Positions 14,716 to 54,401 of a stretch of 64,000 bases of DNA are shown piece after piece. Position 1 is the stretch's first letter. Each line of letters starts with the position of its first letter. Position numbers and translations under genes: made by a program. This stretch comes from an uncultured Gammaproteobacteria bacterium (lineage in GTDB: Bacteria > Pseudomonadota > Gammaproteobacteria > GCA-002705445 > GCA-002716945): assembly GCA_902521725.1 (NCBI GenBank), contig CABYTF010000001.1, positions 1-64,000 of the forward strand. The letters are read 5' to 3'. The notes below the pieces were generated by a model that was given only the letters and a program-made list of their open reading frames with translations, did no database searches and had not been told where the DNA came from.

Positions 14716-16212
14716 CTAAACCTCTTTTTTATTCATTATTAGCGCATTACTGACAAGCTGATGCAAGCTCACAATTTGGTCTAATTCAAGGTCATAATAC
14801 TGGAAAACCTTACTAAATTGACTCTTACAGATAGCGCAAATAGCGGCCATATGCGTGACTCCCTTCTCTTCAATGAGGTGTTTTAAAGCCTCCATCCTAG
14901 GTAATGCTCCTTTTACTCGCAATTCCATCAAATCGTCTGTCAGCAAACCTCCACCGCCCCCGCAGCAGTATGTTTTTTCTCTGATAGTTTCATCGTCCAT
15001 ATCATAAAAGTTATTAGCGACAGTTTGGATAATTTTTCTAGGAATTGTAAATTGCCCTCCCATGATTCCACCCATGCTCGATGCTCTAGCTACATTGCAT
15101 GAATCATGATAGGTAAGCGTCATATCATCATTAGCAGACTTATCGAAATGAAGAACATTTTGATCTATCAGACCATTAGTGATCTCGCAAATATGTTGTG
15201 GAACGGGATACCTTGGATCTAGAAAGTCAAATGGTCCTGCAAGAGTATTTAAAAAACTATAAGCTACCCTCCAAGCGTGTCCACACTCACCAAAAACAAT
15301 CCTTTTGACGTTGAGTTCCAGAGCAGCTTCTCTAATACGCATTGCTAACTTTTTCATGTTGTCATAGCTTCCTATGAACATACCAAAATTTGCAGCTTCA
15401 CTTGCATGTGAACTTAGTGTCCAGCTTATTCCTGCTTGATGAAAGACCTTAGCATACCCAATAAGACCATCAACATGAGGCTCAGCGAAAAAATCTGCAG
15501 AAGGTGTAACCAGAAGTACTTCAGAGTCTTTTACATCTAATGGAAACTTTACATCGACTTCAGTATCATCCAATACGTCTTCTTCTAGGCCTTCTAGTGT
15601 ATCTGCCAATGCTGGCTCTGGCAGCCCGAGGTTGTTTCCGATTTTGTGCACTTTGCCAATTATCTCATTACAATATTTCTGCCCTACGCCTATTGAGTCC
15701 ATGACCTCTCTAGCAGCCATAGATATTTCTGCAGTGTCAATGCCTATCGGGCAAAAAACAGCACATCTTCTACATTGAGAACATTGATGATAGTAAGAGT
15801 ACCAGTCATCTAATACTTCTTTTGTTAAATCTGTGGCGCCAACTAGTTTTGGAAAGTATTTTCCTGGTAAAGTAAAGTATCTACGATAAACACCTCTCAT
15901 CAGGTTTTGTCTGCCCACCGGCATGTTGTTCGGATCTTTTGTGCCTTGATAGTAATGACATTTATCTGTGCAGGCGCCGCACTGAATACATGAATCAAGG
16001 TAGACACGAAGTGAGCGATACTTACCTAAAAGGTCACCCATTTTGTCGATGGCTTTTTCCTGCCAATTTTCAACGAGTTCACCAGGATAACCCAAACTTG
16101 ATTGAAATTCTTGTTTTGATTTAAACGGAGATAAATGTGATGTCGCACTATTCTCTAGTTTCGGTATGACTGGAAACTTTCTTACTTCAGGTGTTTCGAA
16201 CTTACTAGCCAT
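14716..16212 (-). CDS. dsrK: DsrK, HdrD-like iron-sulfur subunit
   Basis: Catalytic subunit of DsrMKJOP, facing the cytoplasm and acting on DsrC (disulfide or persulfide). The 498-residue protein has two ferredoxin motifs, CIQCGACTDKC near residue 75 and CSQCRRCAVFCP near 145. It also has heterodisulfide-reductase CCG-type segments, including YCCGGGGGLL near 420 and CAICKSQF near 460, which bind the noncubane cluster in HdrB/HdrD proteins. It starts one base after the dsrM stop. Confidence 0.96.
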   Translation of the reverse strand: MASKFETPEVRKFPVIPKLENSATSHLSPFKSKQEFQSSLGYPGELVENWQEKAIDKMGDLLGKYRSLRVYLDSCIQCGACTDKCHYYQGTKDPNNMPVGRQNLMRGVYRRYFTLPGKYFPKLVGATDLTKEVLDDWYSYYHQCSQCRRCAVFCPIGIDTAEISMAAREVMDSIGVGQKYCNEIIGKVHKIGNNLGLPEPALADTLEGLEEDVLDDTEVDVKFPLDVKDSEVLLVTPSADFFAEPHVDGLIGYAKVFHQAGISWTLSSHASEAANFGMFIGSYDNMKKLAMRIREAALELNVKRIVFGECGHAWRVAYSFLNTLAGPFDFLDPRYPVPQHICEITNGLIDQNVLHFDKSANDDMTLTYHDSCNVARASSMGGIMGGQFTIPRKIIQTVANNFYDMDDETIREKTYCCGGGGGLLTDDLMELRVKGALPRMEALKHLIEEKGVTHMAAICAICKSQFSKVFQYYDLELDQIVSLHQLVSNALIMNKKEV

Positions 16213-16213
16213 G

Positions 16214-16951
16214 TTATTTTGTAGACTCCATTCTTTTAGCCCAGTCAGCTACATGCCTTTTGCTCCTTGCATTATCAACCTGATTCCTTGTAGGGCTAAA
16301 AAATAAACCAGGTGCATGTAAGAGCTTACTGTAAGGAAAAATTATCATTAATGCAATAACTAGAGATAAATGAATTAACAGTACAGCATCAGATGGAAGC
16401 TCTGAAAAATTAAAAGTTAATAACCCAACAAAAAATAACTTTATGGCAAGAATGTCAGAGGGAAACCACTTCATCATTAAACCAGAGCCAGCAATTGCAA
16501 TGATAAGGACAAGTATTAAATAATCTGATGGTGATGAAATATATCTCACTCTATCTACAAATACCCGCCTTGCAAATAATCCAAGCAAACCAGCGAGCAT
16601 AAGGTATGCCGCATAATGGCCAGCAACCTGGACTAGTTCAGAAGAGACCCAAAACCAAACAGGATCAGTAAAATATTTAAGGTGCCTCAAAGCCGCAAGT
16701 AAAAGCGCTAAATGAAATATCCAACTGAAAAGCCATGTCCATTTTGTCGCAGAAAAAAGACTTTCGAAAAAAACCACCTCTCTGAAAATTCGGATAGCAA
16801 CACCTCTCTGAGTCATTGGAGCTGGTGGTGTTGGTATTTTTAGTGGTGCTGGTATCTTAGCATATTCATAAACTCGGTATGCTAAACCTACAAATAATAT
16901 CGTTGCAGCGAAGTAGAACAACGCTGCATACAATATTGTTACAAATGACAT
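16214..16951 (-). CDS. dsrM: DsrM, cytochrome b membrane subunit
   Basis: Diheme cytochrome b of the NarI type that links DsrK to the quinone pool. The 245-residue protein has about five or six membrane segments. Histidines suitable for heme ligation sit in WIFHLALLLAALRHLK and VQVAGHYAAYL, with a further one in LIHLSLV. It sits between dsrC (25-base gap) and dsrK. Length and residue pattern match DsrM. Confidence 0.93.
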   Translation of the reverse strand: MSFVTILYAALFYFAATILFVGLAYRVYEYAKIPAPLKIPTPPAPMTQRGVAIRIFREVVFFESLFSATKWTWLFSWIFHLALLLAALRHLKYFTDPVWFWVSSELVQVAGHYAAYLMLAGLLGLFARRVFVDRVRYISSPSDYLILVLIIAIAGSGLMMKWFPSDILAIKLFFVGLLTFNFSELPSDAVLLIHLSLVIALMIIFPYSKLLHAPGLFFSPTRNQVDNARSKRHVADWAKRMESTK

Positions 16952-16976
16952 TGCCTTTCCCTGACCTTATGATTAC

Positions 16977-17309
16977 TTATACGCAACCAGTAGGTTTAGG
17001 AAGACCTGCAAATTTACATGCTTGTTTACCTGGTCCATAAGGGAAAAGTTCATACAAGTATTTACTGTTTCCTTTATCTTTACCAAGTTTCTTGCCAACA
17101 GCTTTTGTAAGAACTCTTACAGCTGGTGCAATTTGATACTCTTCATAGTATTCACGAAGGAAGTTTATAATTTCCCAGTGATCCTCTGAAAGATCAATAT
17201 CATCTTCTTTTGCCATTACTGTCGCTACATCTTTTTCCCAGTCGTTGAGGTTTGCTAAGTATCCCTCTTCGTCTGTTTCTAAAGATTTGCCATTTACTTC
17301 AATTGCCAT
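16977..17309 (-). CDS. dsrC: DsrC, sulfur-carrying substrate protein
   Basis: Key sulfur carrier of the pathway. It is loaded with persulfide sulfur through DsrEFH and presents it to DsrAB as a trisulfide. The 110-residue protein keeps both functional cysteines on the flexible C-terminal arm: C98 (KQACKFAG) and C109 (TGCV), eleven residues apart as in Allochromatium. The body matches DsrC/TusE (VNGKSLETDEEGYLANL, DHWEIINFLREYY). Compare the cysteine-free paralogue at 22691-23029. An AGGAG-like site precedes the ATG. Confidence 0.97.
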   Translation of the reverse strand: MAIEVNGKSLETDEEGYLANLNDWEKDVATVMAKEDDIDLSEDHWEIINFLREYYEEYQIAPAVRVLTKAVGKKLGKDKGNSKYLYELFPYGPGKQACKFAGLPKPTGCV

Positions 17310-17321
17310 CTTTCTCTCCTG

Positions 17322-17624
17322 TTAAAGCCAATTTTGAGTTTTTTCGTTATCAGCTACAAGTTTAACGAAACCTTTATAATCTATAATTTCTATATTATTT
17401 GTTAAATTTGAATTATCAAGCCCTCTTGCTTCAAGATCCGGTCCTAGTACATAAAAACTAATATTTGCATGGTTATCAGATATCTGCTTTTCGAAAATTG
17501 TTCCTTTTGTGCATGCATACACAGCATCCTCGATAAATAATACTGATGAGCCCTTCTCTGCATATCTTAAACAAGTCTTGAGACTATCCTTTTCAAAAGG
17601 CGATTTGTTAATTGTGTGTAACAT
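17322..17624 (-). CDS. dsrH: DsrH, sulfurtransferase subunit (TusB-like)
   Basis: Third subunit of the DsrE2F2H2 sulfurtransferase, similar to TusB. The 100-residue protein begins MLHTINKSPFEKDSL and keeps the family cysteine at C18. It has the usual FIEDAVYAC segment. Its ATG overlaps the dsrF stop (TAATG), so translation is coupled. The complex receives sulfur and hands it to DsrC. Confidence 0.94.
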   Translation of the reverse strand: MLHTINKSPFEKDSLKTCLRYAEKGSSVLFIEDAVYACTKGTIFEKQISDNHANISFYVLGPDLEARGLDNSNLTNNIEIIDYKGFVKLVADNEKTQNWL

Positions 17625-18010
17625 TAAAAATTAAAAAATACCTCAGATTCATTAAATAGTTTTTTTAAGTCTGAAGATGCTAGAACTTCGACATCGACAG
17701 ACAAATCATCTTCGCTTAGACCACGTTCTTCTAGAGACTCTTTTTCAACATATAACTTTTCAACGTCATACATTTCTAAAGCTCCAAATGTTTTAGTAAA
17801 GTTTTTCGTTGCTATACCATCTGTATTCTGACCTTTTTTGAGTTGGTACACTCCATCATCAATGAATGCTAGTGATACATCTTGCTCGAATGCAGCAGCA
17901 ATCAAAACTACTTCAAGAGCTTCATGTGCATAGATTGTTCCGTGTGGAGCTTTTCTATTCACATAGATGAATTTTTTTACGATTCCTGATTCTAACTCTT
18001 GATCTTCCAT
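17624..18010 (-). CDS. dsrF: DsrF, sulfurtransferase subunit (TusC-like)
   Basis: Second subunit of DsrEFH, TusC-like, 128 residues. It has the family pattern KKFIYVNRKAPHGTIYAHEALE and FIDDGVYQLKKGQ. The ATG at 18008-18010 starts one base after the dsrE stop. Upstream in-frame TTG/GTG codons inside dsrE would add four residues and are not needed. DsrF has no active cysteine in the family; it has a structural role. Confidence 0.94.
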   Translation of the reverse strand: MEDQELESGIVKKFIYVNRKAPHGTIYAHEALEVVLIAAAFEQDVSLAFIDDGVYQLKKGQNTDGIATKNFTKTFGALEMYDVEKLYVEKESLEERGLSEDDLSVDVEVLASSDLKKLFNESEVFFNF

Positions 18011-18011
18011 G

Positions 18012-18404
18012 TCAATCACCAAATGTAATCATTCTATCGGCTTGTATGCCTGCTTCTATTAATTGGCCTAACCCTGATATTCTAAATTTACCTGCGATAT
18101 TGTTAGCGTCTTTGCTATTTCTTTTCATCTCATCTTCATCTACCATTCCTCTTCTTTGAGCTGCTGCTACACAGAGTACAAGATCGAGGTCATGTTTCTC
18201 AGCTAATTCAGTCCAACGGTTTGGAATGTGTCTATCGTCTTGAGGAGGAGTAGCCAATCGAGTGCCGTTATTAACACCGTCATGATAGAAGAAAACTCTA
18301 AATATCTCATGTCCTTCTTCGATGGCAGCCTCTATGAATTTGTAGGCAGTGTCAGAAGCTTGATGTTGGTAAGGGCCCTCGTTAATTAAAACTCCAAACT
18401 TCAT
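18012..18404 (-). CDS. dsrE: DsrE, sulfur-accepting sulfurtransferase subunit (TusD-like)
   Basis: Sulfur-binding subunit of DsrEFH. The 130-residue protein has C78 in the segment DLVLCVAAAQRRG, the same position as the active Cys78 of Allochromatium DsrE. HDGVNNGTRL and RWTELAEKHDL are also typical. It lies 12 bases after dsrB, followed directly by dsrF. The presence of DsrEFH with a full DsrC is known to mark sulfur-oxidising rather than sulfate-reducing Dsr systems. Confidence 0.96.
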   Translation of the reverse strand: MKFGVLINEGPYQHQASDTAYKFIEAAIEEGHEIFRVFFYHDGVNNGTRLATPPQDDRHIPNRWTELAEKHDLDLVLCVAAAQRRGMVDEDEMKRNSKDANNIAGKFRISGLGQLIEAGIQADRMITFGD

Positions 18405-18416
18405 GATAGCTGGTAA

Positions 18417-19502
18417 TTAAAATCTAACGTATGCCGATGAGTTGAGAGTTTTTCTGCCACCGCGCCAATTATCAATATGATATTTTGTAAATGGTAGTTC
18501 AGTAAGTTCAAAAAATCTTGGCCAACCTATTCTCTCAATCCAGTCGTTGATTCTTTCCCAATCACGAGCATCTTCTTTATATGCAGATAAAATTCGTTTT
18601 ACAATTGCCGTTGCTTCAGGCCATCTTGGTGGGTTATTAGGAATACCGGCTGCGACAAGTTTCTGAAAAGATGGTTTACTTCTAGCATTAGAGTGATTTC
18701 CACCAACCCATATAGCCAGTTTACTGTGCTCTGGATCATTGATCTGCATTGGAGGACATGGTGGGAAACACGCACCACAACATATACATTTTTTTTCATC
18801 AACTTCTAAAGAGGGTTTGCCATTTACCATTGCTGGTCTGATAGCAGCCACTGGACAACGCGCGACCACAGATGGTCTTTCACATACATTTGAAACCAAG
18901 TCATGATTAATTTTTGGTGGTTTTGTATGCTGGATATTTATTGCAATATCACCTTGTCCACCACAGTTAATTTGACAGCAAGAGGTAGTCAAATGAACAC
19001 GATTAGGCATGTCATTATTTCTGAATTCATCAATTAGTTCGTCCATCATTGCTTTTACGACGCCGGATGCGTCAGTACCAGGGATATCACAATGTAACCA
19101 ACCTTGAGTATGAGAAATCATTGCAACTGAGTTTTTTGTTCCCCCGACTATAAACCCCTCCTTCTCTAGGGCATCAATAAGTGGTTGCACTTTATCTTTG
19201 TCACTAACCATGTACTCGATGTTACTTCTTATAGTGAATCTTACATACCCATCGGCAAACTCATCACCAATATCACACAAAGTCCTCAGTGTGAATACGT
19301 CTAATATACGTTGTGTTCCGGCCCTTACAGTCCAAATTTCCTCACCACTATGAGCTACATGCACCAAAACTCCTGGTCTTGGGTGTTCATGGTATTTCCA
19401 TTGGCCGAAGTTTTTTCGCATCGTTGGATGCATGTATTGAAAACCATCAGGACATCCAGTCTCAATCGGAGTTCTCATCTCTTTTTTCGCATTCTCACCC
19501 AT
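18417..19502 (-). CDS. dsrB: Reverse-type dissimilatory sulfite reductase, beta subunit
   Basis: Beta subunit of the cytoplasmic siroheme enzyme that oxidises DsrC-bound sulfur to sulfite. The 361-residue protein carries TTSCCQINCGGQGDIAIN and the downstream VCERPSVVARCP group around the siroheme site. An inserted ferredoxin domain has KKCICCGACFPPCPPM. The active-site half resembles DsrA but is not identical, as expected for paralogues. Its ATG overlaps the dsrA stop (TAATG). Confidence 0.97.
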   Translation of the reverse strand: MGENAKKEMRTPIETGCPDGFQYMHPTMRKNFGQWKYHEHPRPGVLVHVAHSGEEIWTVRAGTQRILDVFTLRTLCDIGDEFADGYVRFTIRSNIEYMVSDKDKVQPLIDALEKEGFIVGGTKNSVAMISHTQGWLHCDIPGTDASGVVKAMMDELIDEFRNNDMPNRVHLTTSCCQINCGGQGDIAINIQHTKPPKINHDLVSNVCERPSVVARCPVAAIRPAMVNGKPSLEVDEKKCICCGACFPPCPPMQINDPEHSKLAIWVGGNHSNARSKPSFQKLVAAGIPNNPPRWPEATAIVKRILSAYKEDARDWERINDWIERIGWPRFFELTELPFTKYHIDNWRGGRKTLNSSAYVRF

Positions 19503-20758
19503 TATGCTGAATCCTTTTCACGTTGATCGGCTTTTTCATACCATTTTACAGCCTCATCATCCCAGTCGTCTGTTCTGACATAAGAACTTTCTCGCGGATT
19601 AGCCACCATGTTTGGATCTACGTCAATGCCAACTCCTTCTAGGAAATTCACAAGCCCAATTCTCTCGATCATCTCGCCACATCTCTCATGTTCAAGAGCA
19701 TTATCAGCCCAAAAATCAATCGTTTCTTCTGCAATCTCGACTAGTCTCTCCCAATCCTCTTCTTTTTCTAGCTTCATAAATGGAACAATGACTGTGCCCA
19801 TCAAATCACCAATTTTAAGAGTTCTTTTACCGCCAATAAGTATTGTTACACCTTTGTCATCTCCACACTGAAGTGCTTTAGGGACAACATTTAGGCAGTG
19901 CATACATTTGACGCAGTTTTGATTATCGATTTGAATTGAATCATCATCATTTAATGAGATTGCGTTAGTAGGACATCTCGTTACGATATTATCAATAACG
20001 TACTTACGTCCTTTCATCTCTACGTACTTCTTAAACTCTTCTTGATCCACTTTAATATCATCTCTCCATGTTCCTATTACTGACATATCAGCTCTCTCAA
20101 TGGAGTTCATGCAATCATTTGGACAACCTGAAACTTTGAATTTGAATTTGTATGGTAAGGCAGGTCTGTGCACATCGTCTGTAAAGTTATTAACTAAGAG
20201 TCTGTGAGCTTTATGTTCATTTACATTAGACATCTCACAACGTCCAGCACCAACGCATGACATTGCTGTTCTTACGCAAGGTCCTGCACCACCAAGGTCA
20301 AATCCATAATCATTGATCTCATCAAAGAAATGTTGTGTGTTTTCTGTTGTTGATCCAATGAACATGATATTACCTGTTTGTCCATGGAATGTTACCAAAC
20401 CAGATCCATGTTTCTCCCAACTATCTGCAAGTTGTCTAAGCATACTTGTTGAGTAGAAATTACCCGCAGGTGGTTGCACTCTTAATGTATGAAATTCTTT
20501 AGATGCAGGAAAGACATTGCCCACTTCTGAAAATCTAGGTATGATGCCGCCTCCGTAGCCGTATACACTTACTGTCCCACCTTTCCAGTAACCTTTACGT
20601 GTTTCGTATGAATGCTCCAACTGACCAAGAAGGTCATTTGTCATCTCATTAATTCTTTTTTCTGGATGTGTATCTCTGAGTCTTTTTATGCCACTGATGA
20701 AACTAGGCCATGGGCCATTCTCTAGCTCATCAATCATTGGTGTATCATGTTTTTTCAC
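19502..20758 (-). CDS. dsrA: Reverse-type dissimilatory sulfite reductase, alpha subunit
   Basis: Alpha subunit of oxidative DsrAB, 418 residues. Siroheme-[4Fe-4S] ligands sit in CVGAGRCEMSN and SGCPNDCMNS; a ferredoxin domain carries NCVKCMHCLNVVPK. The start is a GTG at 20756-20758 with AGGGG seven bases upstream. An ATG eight codons further in is possible but has no ribosome site. The oxidative direction is inferred from the linked dsrEFH, dsrL, dsrN and dsrR. This is the first gene of the operon, divergent from the island at 20903. Confidence 0.97.
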   Translation of the reverse strand: MKKHDTPMIDELENGPWPSFISGIKRLRDTHPEKRINEMTNDLLGQLEHSYETRKGYWKGGTVSVYGYGGGIIPRFSEVGNVFPASKEFHTLRVQPPAGNFYSTSMLRQLADSWEKHGSGLVTFHGQTGNIMFIGSTTENTQHFFDEINDYGFDLGGAGPCVRTAMSCVGAGRCEMSNVNEHKAHRLLVNNFTDDVHRPALPYKFKFKVSGCPNDCMNSIERADMSVIGTWRDDIKVDQEEFKKYVEMKGRKYVIDNIVTRCPTNAISLNDDDSIQIDNQNCVKCMHCLNVVPKALQCGDDKGVTILIGGKRTLKIGDLMGTVIVPFMKLEKEEDWERLVEIAEETIDFWADNALEHERCGEMIERIGLVNFLEGVGIDVDPNMVANPRESSYVRTDDWDDEAVKWYEKADQREKDSA

Positions 20759-20835
20759 AAATATTCCCCTAAAATCCTTTGGTTTCCAATGTATATTATT
20801 TTATCATTGATTTCTAATATGTCCACGTGAAGTTA

Positions 20836-20902: not shown

Positions 20903-21730
20903 ATGATATTTACAGCAAAATCAGCAGAATTTCTCAGATGGGCAGAAGAAAAAGAGAAGAATATCCCTCAGAATAGTGATGGTATATTAGTAAATATCCA
21001 TGACATAAATAATGTAAAAACCTCTGAGATCGCTAAGATCAAAGAGACAATCTATAAATATAATAGCTGCATATATTCATCTAAGATCGCTTTAAAGTCT
21101 AATACTAATCTTTTAAAATTTGTCGAATTAGTTGGGATGAGAACTTATGATTGCAACAACATAGATTCGAATGAGATTAGTACAATTACACCTTTACAAA
21201 ACAGCAAAATAAATTATATACCTTACACAGATAAGCCGCTTAATTGGCATACTGATGGTTACTATGATAAAAAATCAATTTTTTCTTGGCTCCTTCACTG
21301 TGTCAATCCAGCAACCCAAGGAGGTGAGAATTATTTACTTGATCATGAATTAGTTTTGAGAGAATACCTCTTAAGAAATGACGATATAAATAATTTAATG
21401 GCTGAAGACGCGTTAACCATACCCGAGAGCAAATACACATCTAGATCAGAGATCTCAACTTATATTTTCTCTTTCAAAAATAAGTATAAAAGATTACACA
21501 TGAGGTTCTCTATGCGAAAAGATAACATTGGCACAAGTGCAAAGGCTAATTCTGCGGTAATAAAGCTGAGAGAAATTATAGAAGGTAATTGCGCCAAATA
21601 TTCTTTAACGTACAAGCTACAAAAAAATGAAGGGATTATAACTAACAACATTTTACATGGAAGAAAGGCATTCAAAGATGATAAGGTAAAAAGAAAACTT
21701 TTAAGGATCAGATCTTACGAGAGGTTATAA
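20903..21730 (+). CDS. TauD/TfdA-like Fe(II)/2-oxoglutarate dioxygenase
   Basis: 275-residue protein with the fold pattern of TauD/TfdA oxygenases. The iron triad is visible: LNWHTDGYYD holds the HxD pair, and ILHGRKAF holds the distal His. An Arg-rich end (KLLRIRSYER) could bind 2-oxoglutarate. The substrate is unknown; TauD itself releases sulfite from taurine, but nothing here shows that substrate. It is the first gene of the + strand island that diverges from dsrA, and it overlaps the next gene by one base (TAATG). It contains no signal peptide. Confidence 0.75.
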   Translation: MIFTAKSAEFLRWAEEKEKNIPQNSDGILVNIHDINNVKTSEIAKIKETIYKYNSCIYSSKIALKSNTNLLKFVELVGMRTYDCNNIDSNEISTITPLQNSKINYIPYTDKPLNWHTDGYYDKKSIFSWLLHCVNPATQGGENYLLDHELVLREYLLRNDDINNLMAEDALTIPESKYTSRSEISTYIFSFKNKYKRLHMRFSMRKDNIGTSAKANSAVIKLREIIEGNCAKYSLTYKLQKNEGIITNNILHGRKAFKDDKVKRKLLRIRSYERL

Positions 21731-21924
21731 TGCTTTATCTCAGTACGCTACTAATAGAATACAAAGATGTTGAGACATTTGACGAGTTTTTAGAAATCGT
21801 TAGACAGAAGGCTGTCGAAGGAGAAATGTTTATAAGGTTTGATTTGAAACCACCCTTTCCAGATACTCCAGAGAATTGGCAAGATCGTATAGAAAGTGTC
21901 TTCAGTGGTTATATAAGAGAGTAA
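21730..21924 (+). CDS. Small unknown protein (64 residues) of the dsr-linked island
   Basis: I do not recognise this protein. It is acidic, 64 residues, and reads like a single alpha/beta unit, with a C-terminal block PPFPDTPENWQDRI. It is probably real because its ATG overlaps the stop of the dioxygenase (TAATG) and its stop lies two bases before the ATG of the Cas6-like gene. A role as a partner of either neighbour is inference from coupling only. Confidence 0.6.
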   Translation: MLYLSTLLIEYKDVETFDEFLEIVRQKAVEGEMFIRFDLKPPFPDTPENWQDRIESVFSGYIRE

Positions 21925-21926
21925 AT

Positions 21927-22604
21927 ATGTGGCAAGAGGAAGAAGAAAAAAAACCAATAGCTGATAGTTCAGATATGGTGGAATTATCGTTTTCTGTTGA
22001 TTGTAAAGAACTTCCATATGACCATGCATACGAACTCTCTTCAGAAATCCTAAACCTAGTCCCTGAGATCAAAAATGATAATAGAAATGCCATTCAAACA
22101 TTGCATGGGCCGATGTCAGGCAACGGATGGGTACGTCCTGATAGCGAGAATATACCTTTATCTAAAAGAGCAAAGCTTATAATGCGCATCAATAAAAACC
22201 AAATTAATGATATTAAATGTATAGAAGGGAGAGAGATAAGGCTTTTTGGAAATACATTAAAAATTGGTAGCTCAAAAGTTAAAAATTTCTTGGTTGTTAA
22301 AGACTTGTTCTGCAGGTTTGTGATGAGTGATCATAAGACATCAGAAGAAGATTTCCTTAATATAATTCAAAAAGAATTGAGAGGCTTAAAAATTAATATT
22401 AAAAAAGCACTCTGTGGAAGATCCATGGTAATTAGCTTCGGTGAAAAGACACTATATACAAGATCACTTATGATTGCTGACTTATCTAAAGAGGAGTCAC
22501 TTAAGCTACAAGAAGAGGGTGTGGGTGATAAGAAACTATATGGTTGTGGTATTTTCCTTCCGCATAAATCAATTGATGCTGTAAGTAATTTTAAAGAGGA
22601 CTAG
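21927..22604 (+). CDS. Cas6/Cmx6-like protein, orphan (no CRISPR array)
   Basis: 225-residue protein resembling the Cas6/Cmx6 family (the type annotated as I-MYXAN). Matching blocks include VELSFSVDCKELPYDHAYEL near the N-terminus, TLHGPMSGNGWVRPD, a KRAKLIMRI strand, ALCGRS, and the C-terminal glycine-rich end YGCGIFLPHKSI. Cas6 proteins are RAMP-fold RNA endonucleases that cut CRISPR RNA. No other cas gene and no repeat array is in the window, so a CRISPR role here is doubtful. The start is the ATG at 21927; a longer frame from 21876 would overlap the previous gene. It is followed by the RspA gene 86 bases later. Confidence 0.7.
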   Translation: MWQEEEEKKPIADSSDMVELSFSVDCKELPYDHAYELSSEILNLVPEIKNDNRNAIQTLHGPMSGNGWVRPDSENIPLSKRAKLIMRINKNQINDIKCIEGREIRLFGNTLKIGSSKVKNFLVVKDLFCRFVMSDHKTSEEDFLNIIQKELRGLKINIKKALCGRSMVISFGEKTLYTRSLMIADLSKEESLKLQEEGVGDKKLYGCGIFLPHKSIDAVSNFKED

Positions 22605-22690
22605 AGAATTACCCACAACCTTCTAGACTTATACTTTTTAGTATATTAGAATTTTCCAATATTGATTAATTCAGAAATGAGGATTTGAAT

Positions 22691-23029
22691 ATGAAAGTTG
22701 AGGTTAATGGTCAAGAAATAGCCACCACTGATACGGGCTTTTTGACAAATATCGAAGACTGGACAGAGGAAGTAGCCTCGGTTATCGCGCAGCAGGAAGG
22801 CATTGAACTTACTCAAAAACACTGGGATGTGATCAACTATTTGCGAGATGAATTCATCAATAATAAAGAAAATCAGCCTAACACTAGGAACATGATTAAA
22901 GATATAGGAAAGTTGTGGGGAGAGAAAATTGATTCAAAAGCATTGTTTGATCTATTCCCCGGCAATCCTAGTAAACAAGCAGGGAGAATTGGCGGTCTAC
23001 CTGAAAGTAGGAGAAAAGGTGGATACTAA
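22691..23029 (+). CDS. Cysteine-free DsrC paralogue (RspA type)
   Basis: 112-residue member of the DsrC/TusE family. The body is clear (VNGQEIATTDTGFLTNIEDW, KHWDVINYLRDEF, LFDLFPGNPSKQAG). Both functional cysteines are gone: the first is Gly in KQAGRIGGLP, and the end is RRKGGY instead of a Cys near the terminus. The protein has no Cys at all, so it cannot carry sulfur. Such proteins have been called RspA, for a supposed regulatory role (established naming; function unproven). The ATG at 22691 has GAGGA eight bases upstream. Its stop overlaps the next ATG. Confidence 0.85.
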   Translation: MKVEVNGQEIATTDTGFLTNIEDWTEEVASVIAQQEGIELTQKHWDVINYLRDEFINNKENQPNTRNMIKDIGKLWGEKIDSKALFDLFPGNPSKQAGRIGGLPESRRKGGY

Positions 23030-23262
23030 TGACTGATGCAGTTAATGAAAAAGAACTACAAAAAGAAAGAAAAGAAATTATTGCAAGGATTTTAGAAATT
23101 CAAAAGAAATTCATGGAACTCGAAAGAGAAAAAGGAGTCACTGAGAAAGATATACACCATAACCCGAAGGGAATTGTCAAAGAATATAAAGAAGAGCATG
23201 AGAAACTTGCTAACAGACTAGTTGATATAGCTCACCAAATAAAGGGGTCGATAAGAACATAA
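23029..23262 (+). CDS. Small coiled-coil protein of the dsr-linked island
   Basis: 77 residues, nearly all charged and helical, with many Glu/Lys/Arg heptad-like stretches (KELQKERKEIIARILEIQKK), so probably a coiled coil. I do not recognise the family. Its ATG overlaps the RspA stop (TAATG), and its stop overlaps the next ATG (TAATG), which strongly suggests a coupled set of three small proteins. Confidence 0.6.
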   Translation: MTDAVNEKELQKERKEIIARILEIQKKFMELEREKGVTEKDIHHNPKGIVKEYKEEHEKLANRLVDIAHQIKGSIRT

Positions 23263-23456
23263 TGAATCAAGAATATTTTGATAAAGTAACTGAACTTGAA
23301 AAAATGAATGCTAGCGATCAATATATATTGGGCTGGCAAGAAGGCTATCAAGACGCGCCAGAAGTAGAAGAGCAAAGAGTAACCGATGCATATCAAGCAG
23401 GATATGAAGACGGTAAGAATAATAATTTCGATAACGTAGAAAAGTTTAAAGACTGA
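23262..23456 (+). CDS. Small protein with two Gly-aromatic repeat motifs
   Basis: 64 residues, acidic. It shows two similar motifs, ILGWQEGYQDAP and AYQAGYEDGKNN, separated by EVEEQRVTD. The pattern is loosely like the paired Gly-Tyr/Trp motifs of ribosome modulation factor, but the protein is acidic rather than basic, so the likeness may be superficial. It is coupled to the upstream coiled-coil gene (TAATG) and ends one base before the convergent gene at 23458. Confidence 0.55.
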   Translation: MNQEYFDKVTELEKMNASDQYILGWQEGYQDAPEVEEQRVTDAYQAGYEDGKNNNFDNVEKFKD

Positions 23457-23457
23457 C

Positions 23458-24021
23458 CTACGATTTCGTTACTGAATCATAAACTTCAAGAATCTTTTTT
23501 AATATTTCAACCGAATCGATATCTATGATTTGATCCATAACCCATTTGTTAGTCTGACTGTAACCCATGACATCTTGACATTTCTTCGACAAGTGTCTGT
23601 ATAAAGAATAATTGCTGCCGTTTCTTGAAAATTCAAATTCAGAGTATTCAGTCGATCTTAAATTAAGTGTATTGATATAGCCTTTCTTGTAATCACCTGG
23701 CCCAAAAAGATCCTCACAATTCTCTTGCATAATTCTTGCTGATTGTTTCCCTAGCGAGTTCATGACTTGAGCTCTAAATTCACTATCCATATTATCCTCA
23801 AACAGCAATCTATCAACTAGATGAACTTGAAAAGACATATACTCTACAATTATAGAAACTCTTTGATGATCATTTTCATATTCAAAATCCTCACCATGGA
23901 GTGTTTTTGCCTTATCCAAAGATAACCTCCATGAAATAAAGGAAAGAGCACTACCATAGTCTTCTGGCGTCTTCTCTCTTTTTACGGTTTTTGACCACTT
24001 GCTTTTAATTCTTATTGCCAT
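23458..24021 (-). CDS. Unknown helical protein, opposed to the island
   Basis: 187 residues, no signal peptide or membrane segment, mainly helical, with the C-terminal part ending in an EILKKILEVYDSV helix. I do not recognise a family. It is the only minus-strand gene in the 20.9-26.5 kb island: its stop is one base from the stop of the Gly-aromatic protein gene, and its start is 40 bases from the divergent dioxygenase at 24062. It probably shares a regulatory gap with that gene. Confidence 0.55.
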   Translation of the reverse strand: MAIRIKSKWSKTVKREKTPEDYGSALSFISWRLSLDKAKTLHGEDFEYENDHQRVSIIVEYMSFQVHLVDRLLFEDNMDSEFRAQVMNSLGKQSARIMQENCEDLFGPGDYKKGYINTLNLRSTEYSEFEFSRNGSNYSLYRHLSKKCQDVMGYSQTNKWVMDQIIDIDSVEILKKILEVYDSVTKS

Positions 24022-24061: not shown

Positions 24062-24661
24062 ATGACTGATCAAATAAAGATAGATAAAAGACTGATCGAA
24101 AAAAGTCCCGGTAGCTTCATATTTGAGTTTGATAACGAAATATCGCCAGAGAAGTGTGATGAAATAATTAATAGGTTTGAAGAATCCAAAGATGATCATT
24201 ATCGAGGCAGAGTTGGTCCGAATTTTGAAGAAAATGATAATGTAAAAAAATCTACCGACATGGTCATAAGTGGTAAAGACTCCTGGAAGGATATTGATGA
24301 AATATTTTTTATCAGCCTCTCCAAAGCACTAGCAAAAATGAAAAAAGAGTATGATTTTTTCAACGGTAAGTTTAAAGACATTGGATATGCAATACAAAGA
24401 ACTGATGTTGGTGAATATTTTCATTGGCATATTGATACTGGTAGTCATCAAATGAGTGATAGACAACTTGTAGCAATATGGTACCTGAATGATGTAGATG
24501 GACCAGGAGGTGAGACAGAGTTCTTACATCAGAAGGTTAAAATAAAACCTGAAAAAGGAAAGCTTGTTATCTTTCCTCCATTTTGGACGCATGAGCATCG
24601 AGGTGTTACAGTAAAGAAAGGGTCAAAATACATTGCGACAACATGGATAGTATTTAAATGA
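24062..24661 (+). CDS. Prolyl 4-hydroxylase-type Fe(II)/2-oxoglutarate dioxygenase
   Basis: 199-residue dioxygenase. Iron ligands are in YFHWHIDTG (HxD) and FWTHEHRGV (His). The block YLNDVDGPGGETEF is typical of P4Hc/2OG-FeII_Oxy_3 proteins, and KKGSKYIATTW holds a basic residue placed for 2-oxoglutarate. The substrate is unknown; protein or small-molecule hydroxylation are both possible. Its stop overlaps the next ATG by four bases (ATGA). This is the second dioxygenase of the island and is not closely similar to the first. Confidence 0.8.
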   Translation: MTDQIKIDKRLIEKSPGSFIFEFDNEISPEKCDEIINRFEESKDDHYRGRVGPNFEENDNVKKSTDMVISGKDSWKDIDEIFFISLSKALAKMKKEYDFFNGKFKDIGYAIQRTDVGEYFHWHIDTGSHQMSDRQLVAIWYLNDVDGPGGETEFLHQKVKIKPEKGKLVIFPPFWTHEHRGVTVKKGSKYIATTWIVFK

Positions 24662-25767
24662 ATAAAAGTTCAACAGAAGCTCAAGAAAATATAAAATCTG
24701 TCATTCAAAGAATTGCCACAGGTCCAGAACTAAGTAAAAACATTTCTAGAGACGAGGCAAAAAGATCGATGTCCGATATTCTTAATGGTGAAATTGATCC
24801 AGTTCAATCTGCAATATTTTTAATTGCTTTACGAATGAAAAGAGAAACCATAGATGAGAATTTGGGCGTTCATGATGCAATTATTGAATCCACAACCACT
24901 GTTGATACCTCATGTGATAGTCTTATAAACATTGCTGATCCATATGATGGATTTTCCAGAAATCTTCCATCGTCTATTTTTATACTCCCAGTTATTGCAG
25001 AACTTGGTCTCCCAATTGTCTCGCACGGGGTTTTTTCTGTTGGGCCCAAGTATGGATGCACACATCACTTAACCTTAAAAGAGCTTGGATACAATTCTAA
25101 TAATGATCATCAAGAGATAGTTGAAAGACTAGAGAATAAAGATATTGGCTGGGCATATGCTGACCAATCGATGTTTAATCCAAAACTTTACAACCTGATG
25201 AGTCTGAGAAAACAGATTATAAAAAGACCCGTTATCACAACCGTTGAGGTGTTAGTAAAACCTGTATCATCAAAAAATGATATGTTTTTCACAGGTTTCG
25301 TTCACAAACCATACCCACCGATATATCTAGAGCTCTCCAGGAATGCTCAGTTTAACTCAGCAACAGTCATAAGAGGTACTGAGGGAGGTATTATCCCATC
25401 TTTAAGACAGACCGGTAAGGTTCATTTTTATCACAGCGCAGGTGAACAAGATGATTATTACGATGTCACTCCTGAAGATCTAGGAATAGTTCAATCGTCA
25501 AGAGCTGTTGATATCCCTGAAGAAATAACAAGGAAAAATACTAAGGATAAAATTGAATCAAAAGTGGACGCAGTTGATATTGCTAAAGAGACAATTAAAT
25601 CAGGTACAAGTGCTTTATCAGGTAATGATGGACCTATGTTGTCATGTATCCAGCTTGGTGCTGCGATTATCTTGCAACGGGCAACTGGTAATGATTTAGG
25701 TAATTGTTCAAAAGAAGTCTTACGAGTCTTAAAAAGTGGAGCTGCTTTAAAAAGGATGAAAAGATGA
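24658..25767 (+). CDS. TrpD-like (anthranilate phosphoribosyltransferase family) protein with altered active site
   Basis: 369 residues with the TrpD / glycosyltransferase family 3 layout: a helical N-terminal domain (SMSDILNGEIDPVQSAIFLI), then the alpha/beta domain ending in YDVTPEDLG, and a C-terminal GNDGPMLSC segment. The PRPP motif GTGGDG of true TrpD is replaced by ADPYDGF, and the HGNRSxSS region by HGVFSVGP. It is therefore unlikely to make tryptophan, and no trp gene is near. The TrpD2/YbiB branch includes nucleic-acid binders (established), which may be the better analogy. ATGA overlaps link it to both neighbours. Confidence 0.7.
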   Translation: MNKSSTEAQENIKSVIQRIATGPELSKNISRDEAKRSMSDILNGEIDPVQSAIFLIALRMKRETIDENLGVHDAIIESTTTVDTSCDSLINIADPYDGFSRNLPSSIFILPVIAELGLPIVSHGVFSVGPKYGCTHHLTLKELGYNSNNDHQEIVERLENKDIGWAYADQSMFNPKLYNLMSLRKQIIKRPVITTVEVLVKPVSSKNDMFFTGFVHKPYPPIYLELSRNAQFNSATVIRGTEGGIIPSLRQTGKVHFYHSAGEQDDYYDVTPEDLGIVQSSRAVDIPEEITRKNTKDKIESKVDAVDIAKETIKSGTSALSGNDGPMLSCIQLGAAIILQRATGNDLGNCSKEVLRVLKSGAALKRMKR

Positions 25768-54328: not shown

Positions 54329-54401
54329 TGCCGGAAAGTGGAATCGAACCACTGACCTACGCGTTACGAATGCGGTGCTCTGCCAACTGAGCTATTCCGG
54401 C
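54329..54401 (-). tRNA. tRNA-Thr(CGU)
   Basis: 73 bases on the minus strand including discriminator A. Acceptor GCCGGAA pairs TTCCGGC; D arm is GCTC-AGTTGGCA-GAGC; T arm is AGTGG-TTCGATT-CCACT. The anticodon loop TTCGTAA gives CGT (Thr, codon ACG). The anticodon stem CCGCA / CGCGT pairs only at three of five positions. No CCA is encoded. E. coli tRNA-Thr(CGU) has the same loop and variable region. Confidence 0.93.

Follow-up and report, generated by a model that had tools for sequence, protein, structure and literature searches.

In Cas6 proteins, a D-H motif and a glycine-rich loop serve RNA cleavage. The closest described relatives of the protein analysed here are the Cas6/Cmx6 proteins of type I-MYXAN systems from cyanobacterial plasmids (Nostoc, Synechocystis PCC 6714 and Gloeothece), which belong to the same Pfam and NCBIfam family. 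These proteins are basic and sit in complete cas operons, whereas the proteins described below, which are encoded next to the genes of the reverse dissimilatory sulfite reductase (Dsr), do neither. A further Cas6/Cmx6 without annotated cas neighbours is encoded on a Gloeobacter plasmid (L110), where genes of the PAPS-reductase family adjoin it. Among proteins of known structure, the closest comes from a type I-B CAST, whose Cas6 acts in a crRNA-guided Cascade.

A Cas6-family protein in a genome without CRISPR

The window, that is, the entire stretch of 64,000 nucleotides analysed here, contains on the forward strand (21927..22604) an open reading frame of 225 codons, the product of which is established computationally as a member of the Cas6 family. 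It matches the Pfam profile PF09559 (Cas6) over the full length (positions 1-191 of 191; 185.9 bits, E 1e-54, cut-off 26.7) and the NCBIfam profile TIGR02807 (cas6_cmx6) with 128.8 bits, over the curated equivalog cut-off of 98.85; both scores are far above chance. All 66 aligned family members match TIGR02807, and this gene is the only PF09559 copy in its own genome. The AF2 model, built with 66 homologues, is confident (pLDDT 86.8, pTM 0.84), and the top matches in a Foldseek search of the PDB were all Cas6 proteins, first that of the type I-B CAST (8fcj/8fcu; E 6e-16, TM 0.73), then archaeal Cas6 and Cse3/Cas6e. A profile search of PDB sequences with the family likewise retrieved a Cas6 (8fcj_B, E 5e-20). 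Thus, the protein has the RAMP fold and the C-terminal glycine-rich loop, in which G198, G206 and G208 are invariant across all groups aligned. A preliminary description had likened the protein to the Cas6/Cmx6 family and proposed to check for the double RAMP fold, naming an unrelated fold as the outcome that would speak against it; the profile searches and the model bear out both the assignment and the fold.

The absence of CRISPR from the assembled genome, a small gammaproteobacterial one (970,813 bases in 11 contigs, 92% complete), is also established computationally. No array was detected in 970,623 of the 970,813 bases (99.98%), the window included, by a finder that detected the real array in a control CRISPR locus (L107). 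Type I-MYXAN Cas1, Cas2, Cas3, Cas5, Cas7 and Cas8 queries gave no tblastn match in the window; profile searches of the whole genome revealed no Cas1, PF10040, Csy4, Cas6e (PF08798) or second Cas6, and all Cas3-core matches were under the cut-off. Neither was Cas1 found in the 25 genomes searched that belong to the same family as this one. The linked cas1/2/3/5/7/8 genes and the array of a type I-MYXAN system are therefore lacking, and the gene is an orphan, as the preliminary description had held for the window with respect to both cas genes and repeats. That description had also considered a type I locus located elsewhere in the genome and devoid of its own cas6; with no array, Cas1, Csy4, Cas6e or PF10040 in the genome and only sub-threshold Cas3-core matches, such a locus did not come to light.

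Linkage to the reverse Dsr genes

The gene lies in a unit divergent from the dsr operon (14716..20758, reverse strand), which starts with dsrA (19502-20758; TIGR02064, 617 bits) followed by dsrB, dsrEFH, dsrC, dsrM and dsrK. On the forward strand, the unit opens with a TauD-like 2-oxoglutarate/Fe dioxygenase (20903..21730; PF02668) and a conserved protein of 64 amino acids without a Pfam match (21730..21924), and continues beyond the Cas6-like gene with a DsrC paralogue of the RspA type (22691..23029; PF04358), a 77-amino-acid protein that overlaps the rspA stop (23029..23262), and a sulfur-globule oxidation protein of the Alvin_2107 family (23262..23456; NF049856, 82.5 bits, cut-off 60). The Cas6-like gene starts 2 nt after the 64-amino-acid gene, and 86 nt separate its stop from the rspA ATG at 22691, in agreement with the tight placement noticed earlier; because, apart from this gap, the genes of the unit overlap or are 2 nt apart, we infer that they may form one transcript. 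The module further includes, on the reverse strand (23458..24021), an all-helical protein of 187 amino acids (AF2 pLDDT 89.6, six helices) with no PDB fold match at E <= 0.001 and no Pfam family, the gene for which adjoins the Cas6-like and RspA genes in four loci (L123-L126). The adjacent region of the window (24062-25767) encodes a 2OG-Fe(II) oxygenase, which is found in 35 of the 80 Cas6-like loci introduced below, and a TrpD-like glycosyltransferase-family protein.

This order recurs across 80 loci fetched by protein similarity to the Cas6-like protein: the dsr operon runs leftwards, and the TauD-like (62 of 80), 64-amino-acid (75 of 80), Cas6-like, DsrC-paralogue and 77-amino-acid (40 of 80) genes rightwards. 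In 27 loci (within L037-L106), a protein of 235 amino acids, possibly repeat-helical, is encoded between the 64-amino-acid and Cas6-like genes; it and the downstream 77-amino-acid protein are nearly exclusive, with both present only in L037 and L106. Three loci of the Beggiatoa type (L038, L053 and L056) keep the pair of the 64-amino-acid and Cas6-like genes, with no dsr genes within the stretch examined, and a related gene order is found in four divergent genomes.

To assess the linkage across the class, we analysed 369 gammaproteobacterial genomes, drawn evenly, with dsrA called at E < 1e-30. PF09559 is present in 118 of these and dsrA in 119. Of the 118 carriers of PF09559, 111 also have dsrA, versus 8 of the 251 non-carriers, which gives an odds ratio of about 480 and a Fisher p of 7e-75 that overstates independence because the genomes share ancestry, the carriers nonetheless spanning 86 genera. 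By contrast, Cas1, found in 135 of the 369 genomes, shows no association with PF09559 (p 0.13). In 80 of the 103 testable genomes, no more than 8 kb separates the Cas6-like gene from dsrA. All seven PF09559 carriers lacking a dsrA match have this cluster from the dsr side, with the Cas6-like gene next to at least tauD, the 64-amino-acid gene or the DsrC paralogue, and in most of them a contig end truncates it; several of the eight dsrA carriers lacking the Cas6-like gene are incomplete assemblies. Hence the Dsr linkage, near-universal among the sampled members of the class that have dsr genes, is established computationally, and the gene shows the co-occurrence with and adjacency to dsrA of a reverse-Dsr accessory gene. 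A phylum-wide sample added four carriers, all of the dsr type and with the DsrC paralogue, TauD-like and 187-amino-acid genes, so that no CRISPR-linked comparator was found within the Pseudomonadota in that sample. The CRISPR names that such dsr-linked genes bear ('type I-MYXAN CRISPR-associated protein Cas6/Cmx6') look like misannotation and, for this clade, are very probably wrong. The literature searched yielded no paper on this link, which is no proof of novelty.

The DsrC paralogue ends with RKGGY and has no redox cysteine, in keeping with the name RspA, which implies missing C-terminal cysteines; the RKGGY tail is invariant in the alignment and present in the copies of 67 loci, and the canonical DsrC of the window (16977-17309) ends with PTGCV. 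RspA-type paralogues with the RKGGY ending are also encoded in three contigs of a viral collection (L200, 5995-6315; L201, 6004-6342; L202, 5652-6342), of which L201 could be host DNA, since clear phage genes are few in it; a search for viral contigs with the Cas6-like gene found none, and these three likewise lack it. In L202, a contig of 219,676 bases, the gene directly follows a canonical DsrC gene ending with PTGCI, and the viral copies therefore support a role in sulfur metabolism for RspA, not directly for the Cas6-like protein.

Conserved residues, charge and candidate nucleic acid targets

The D32-H33 codons are located at 22020..22025 (forward strand). H33, the candidate catalytic histidine that the preliminary description had proposed to look for, is conserved in all 71 gammaproteobacterial dsr-type proteins, in three of the four divergent ones and in all CRISPR-linked comparators, with which it aligns; it lies where the first long helix begins, a position that agrees with that of the catalytic histidine in other Cas6 enzymes. 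In one distant carrier (L126), where a TusA-like gene adjoins, tyrosine replaces both H33 and H213. The second conserved element, a GNGWxR loop (residues 65-70; 22119..22136, forward strand), is specific to the dsr clade: W68 is present in 71 of 71 and R70 in 69 of 71 of the gammaproteobacterial proteins, and the motif is absent from CRISPR-linked Cmx6. In the model, it forms a low-confidence, flexible loop (mean pLDDT of residues 61-70, 50). The third element, from G198 to K214 (22518..22568, forward strand), joins the glycine-rich loop to a clade-specific PHK, in which K214 is invariant and H213 nearly so in dsr-linked proteins only. Altogether, the clade-specific residues of the dsr-linked proteins are R70, R81, K160, R179, H213 and K214. 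In a phylogeny with the CRISPR-linked members, the dsr-type proteins group together, but the grouping is weakly supported (0.38) and the tree contains few outgroups.

The overall charge departs from that of Cas6 in CRISPR systems. The median pI of the dsr-type proteins is 5.9, with a net charge of -6 (pI 6.5 for the protein in the window), compared to 9.3-9.6 (median 9.5) for CRISPR-linked Cmx6 and 8.9-10.3 for correctly read Cas6e and Cas6f from the same class, a range that leaves out six sequences in the wrong reading frame (L176, L177, L184, L188, L194 and L196). The dsr-type proteins are thus not the basic, RNA-binding proteins expected of a pre-crRNA endonuclease. With the motifs kept and the net charge inverted, an active-site-like centre remains strongly constrained, whereas the general RNA-binding charge has been lost.

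Folding of 64 gaps between the Cas6-like gene and rspA gave a mean z of -0.44, with seven below -2 and no general structure signal, so a hairpin in this gap was rejected as the substrate. The motif that a Gibbs search yielded in the gap was weak, though stronger than in shuffled controls, and an Rfam scan of the window identified only a tRNA (54329-54401) and nothing near the gap. A motif search of the window showed that the gap contains a conserved 20-bp dyad, ATATTAGAATTTTCCAATAT (22643..22662, forward strand), which has a single exact site in the window, with 0.03 expected at up to 3 mismatches; the genome contains its 15-base core only at this one place, and the dyad is kept in several relatives within this lineage.

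Upstream of dsrA, lineages other than that of the window share a promoter-like block in which CTAR is followed by CCTACCCnTGGG and this by TATCCC-N4-GGGATA, the distances between them being mostly constant (for example, L036, 8550-8640, and L076, 3700-3780). Of 35 intergenic regions upstream of dsrA, 28 contain the TATCCC/GGGATA dyad, versus 1 of 35 shuffled ones. Its mismatches are split 8:9 between the strands, that is, show no strand bias, and given this neutrality and the spacing, RNA hairpins were rejected for this pair of dyads, which look like DNA operators in a promoter region; the block is possibly the binding site of a new dsr regulator. The lineage of the window has a different conserved core in the alignment of this region, TATTATnTTATCATTnnTTTCTAATAT (20792-20825).

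Proposed role and comparison with known systems

Because the genome has no CRISPR and nearly all sampled Gammaproteobacteria with dsr genes have this gene beside them, the Cas6-like protein probably has a new job in sulfur metabolism. Our leading reading, held tentatively and with a little less than even confidence, is that a RAMP protein of the Cas6 family has left CRISPR to become a standing part of the gammaproteobacterial reverse-Dsr set, with a predicted action on RNA together with RspA. Under this reading, the H33/glycine-loop site would still bind, and probably cut, a single specific RNA that is small or structured. Together with the RspA protein, the Cas6-like protein would adjust how Dsr functions, through the processing of a transcript related to Dsr or through an action on tRNA. 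RspA is related to TusE, which as the final carrier passes sulfur to the tRNA thiolase MnmA (PMC3397948). The preliminary description, which the present analysis supports in part, had already suggested that the protein was recruited to bind or cut a cellular RNA, perhaps a dsr message. In its most specific form, a Cas6-derived endoribonuclease paired with a cysteine-less DsrC/TusE paralogue as an RNA-acting regulatory pair that couples the Dsr pathway to a specific cellular RNA, a dsr transcript or a tRNA, the proposal is rather doubtful. The acidic charge, the lack of conserved RNA structure in the gap, the lack of an Rfam match near it and the tyrosine at H33 in L126 all weigh against the leading reading.

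Since the searches gave no RNA target, a role outside RNA remains a serious rival, and we consider an RNA-acting partner of RspA only somewhat likelier than a protein scaffold. The Cas6 fold could have been reused, with RNA handling lost, to bind proteins of the Dsr machinery or to serve in its assembly or regulation, for example by pairing with RspA, DsrC or DsrAB. This possibility, to which we give substantial weight though less than to the leading reading, is favoured by the loss of basic surface charge, by the new clade-specific invariant residues and flexible GNGWxR loop, and by the nearly constant adjacency of a DsrC paralogue in which the RKGGY tail is fixed; however, nearly all members keep the glycine-rich loop and the D-H motif, the candidate for catalysis, and the new invariant residues are mostly Arg, Lys or His, fitting an anionic ligand. 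An antiviral defence or toxin-like RNase with RspA as the partner, the phage RspA copies being counter-defence, would be in line with the Cas6 ancestry and the RspA-type genes in viral-collection contigs, but appears improbable given the near one-to-one link with dsrA, a fixed chromosomal place unlike that of mobile defence genes, and the position of the L202 copy after canonical DsrC, which fits a metabolic gene set. Finally, a Cas6 serving CRISPR, as a relic or by processing crRNA in trans, is suggested by the family name and the score above the equivalog cut-off and is contradicted, to the point of being hardly credible, by an assembled genome almost completely scanned without an array, by the absence of Cas1 from it and from the 25 genomes of its family searched, by the lack of association with cas1 across the 369 genomes, and by conservation in dsr clusters free of cas genes.

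A family named as a CRISPR protein is an apparent core companion of reverse Dsr in a major group of sulfur oxidisers, comprising purple sulfur bacteria, Beggiatoa-type filaments and streamlined marine lineages. If this holds, a large misannotation would be corrected, an unstudied gene would join a long-studied pathway, and a CRISPR RNase domesticated into energy metabolism would become a directly testable case; if the RNA-acting pair with RspA is real, it would be present in almost all sulfur-oxidising Gammaproteobacteria.

Compared with the known systems, the dsr-linked proteins have in common with type I-MYXAN Cas6/Cmx6 the D-H motif, R87 and the glycine-rich loop, and differ from the cyanobacterial proteins in possessing GNGWxR, K160, R179 and PHK. 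The type I-B CAST Cas6, the best fold match, is about 22% identical to the Cas6-like protein and has Asn aligned at the H33 position. Within the DsrC/TusE/RspA family, canonical DsrC ends with the GCV redox tail, whereas the RspA-type paralogue, which is nearly always encoded beside the Cas6-like gene, lacks this tail, ending instead with RKGGY.
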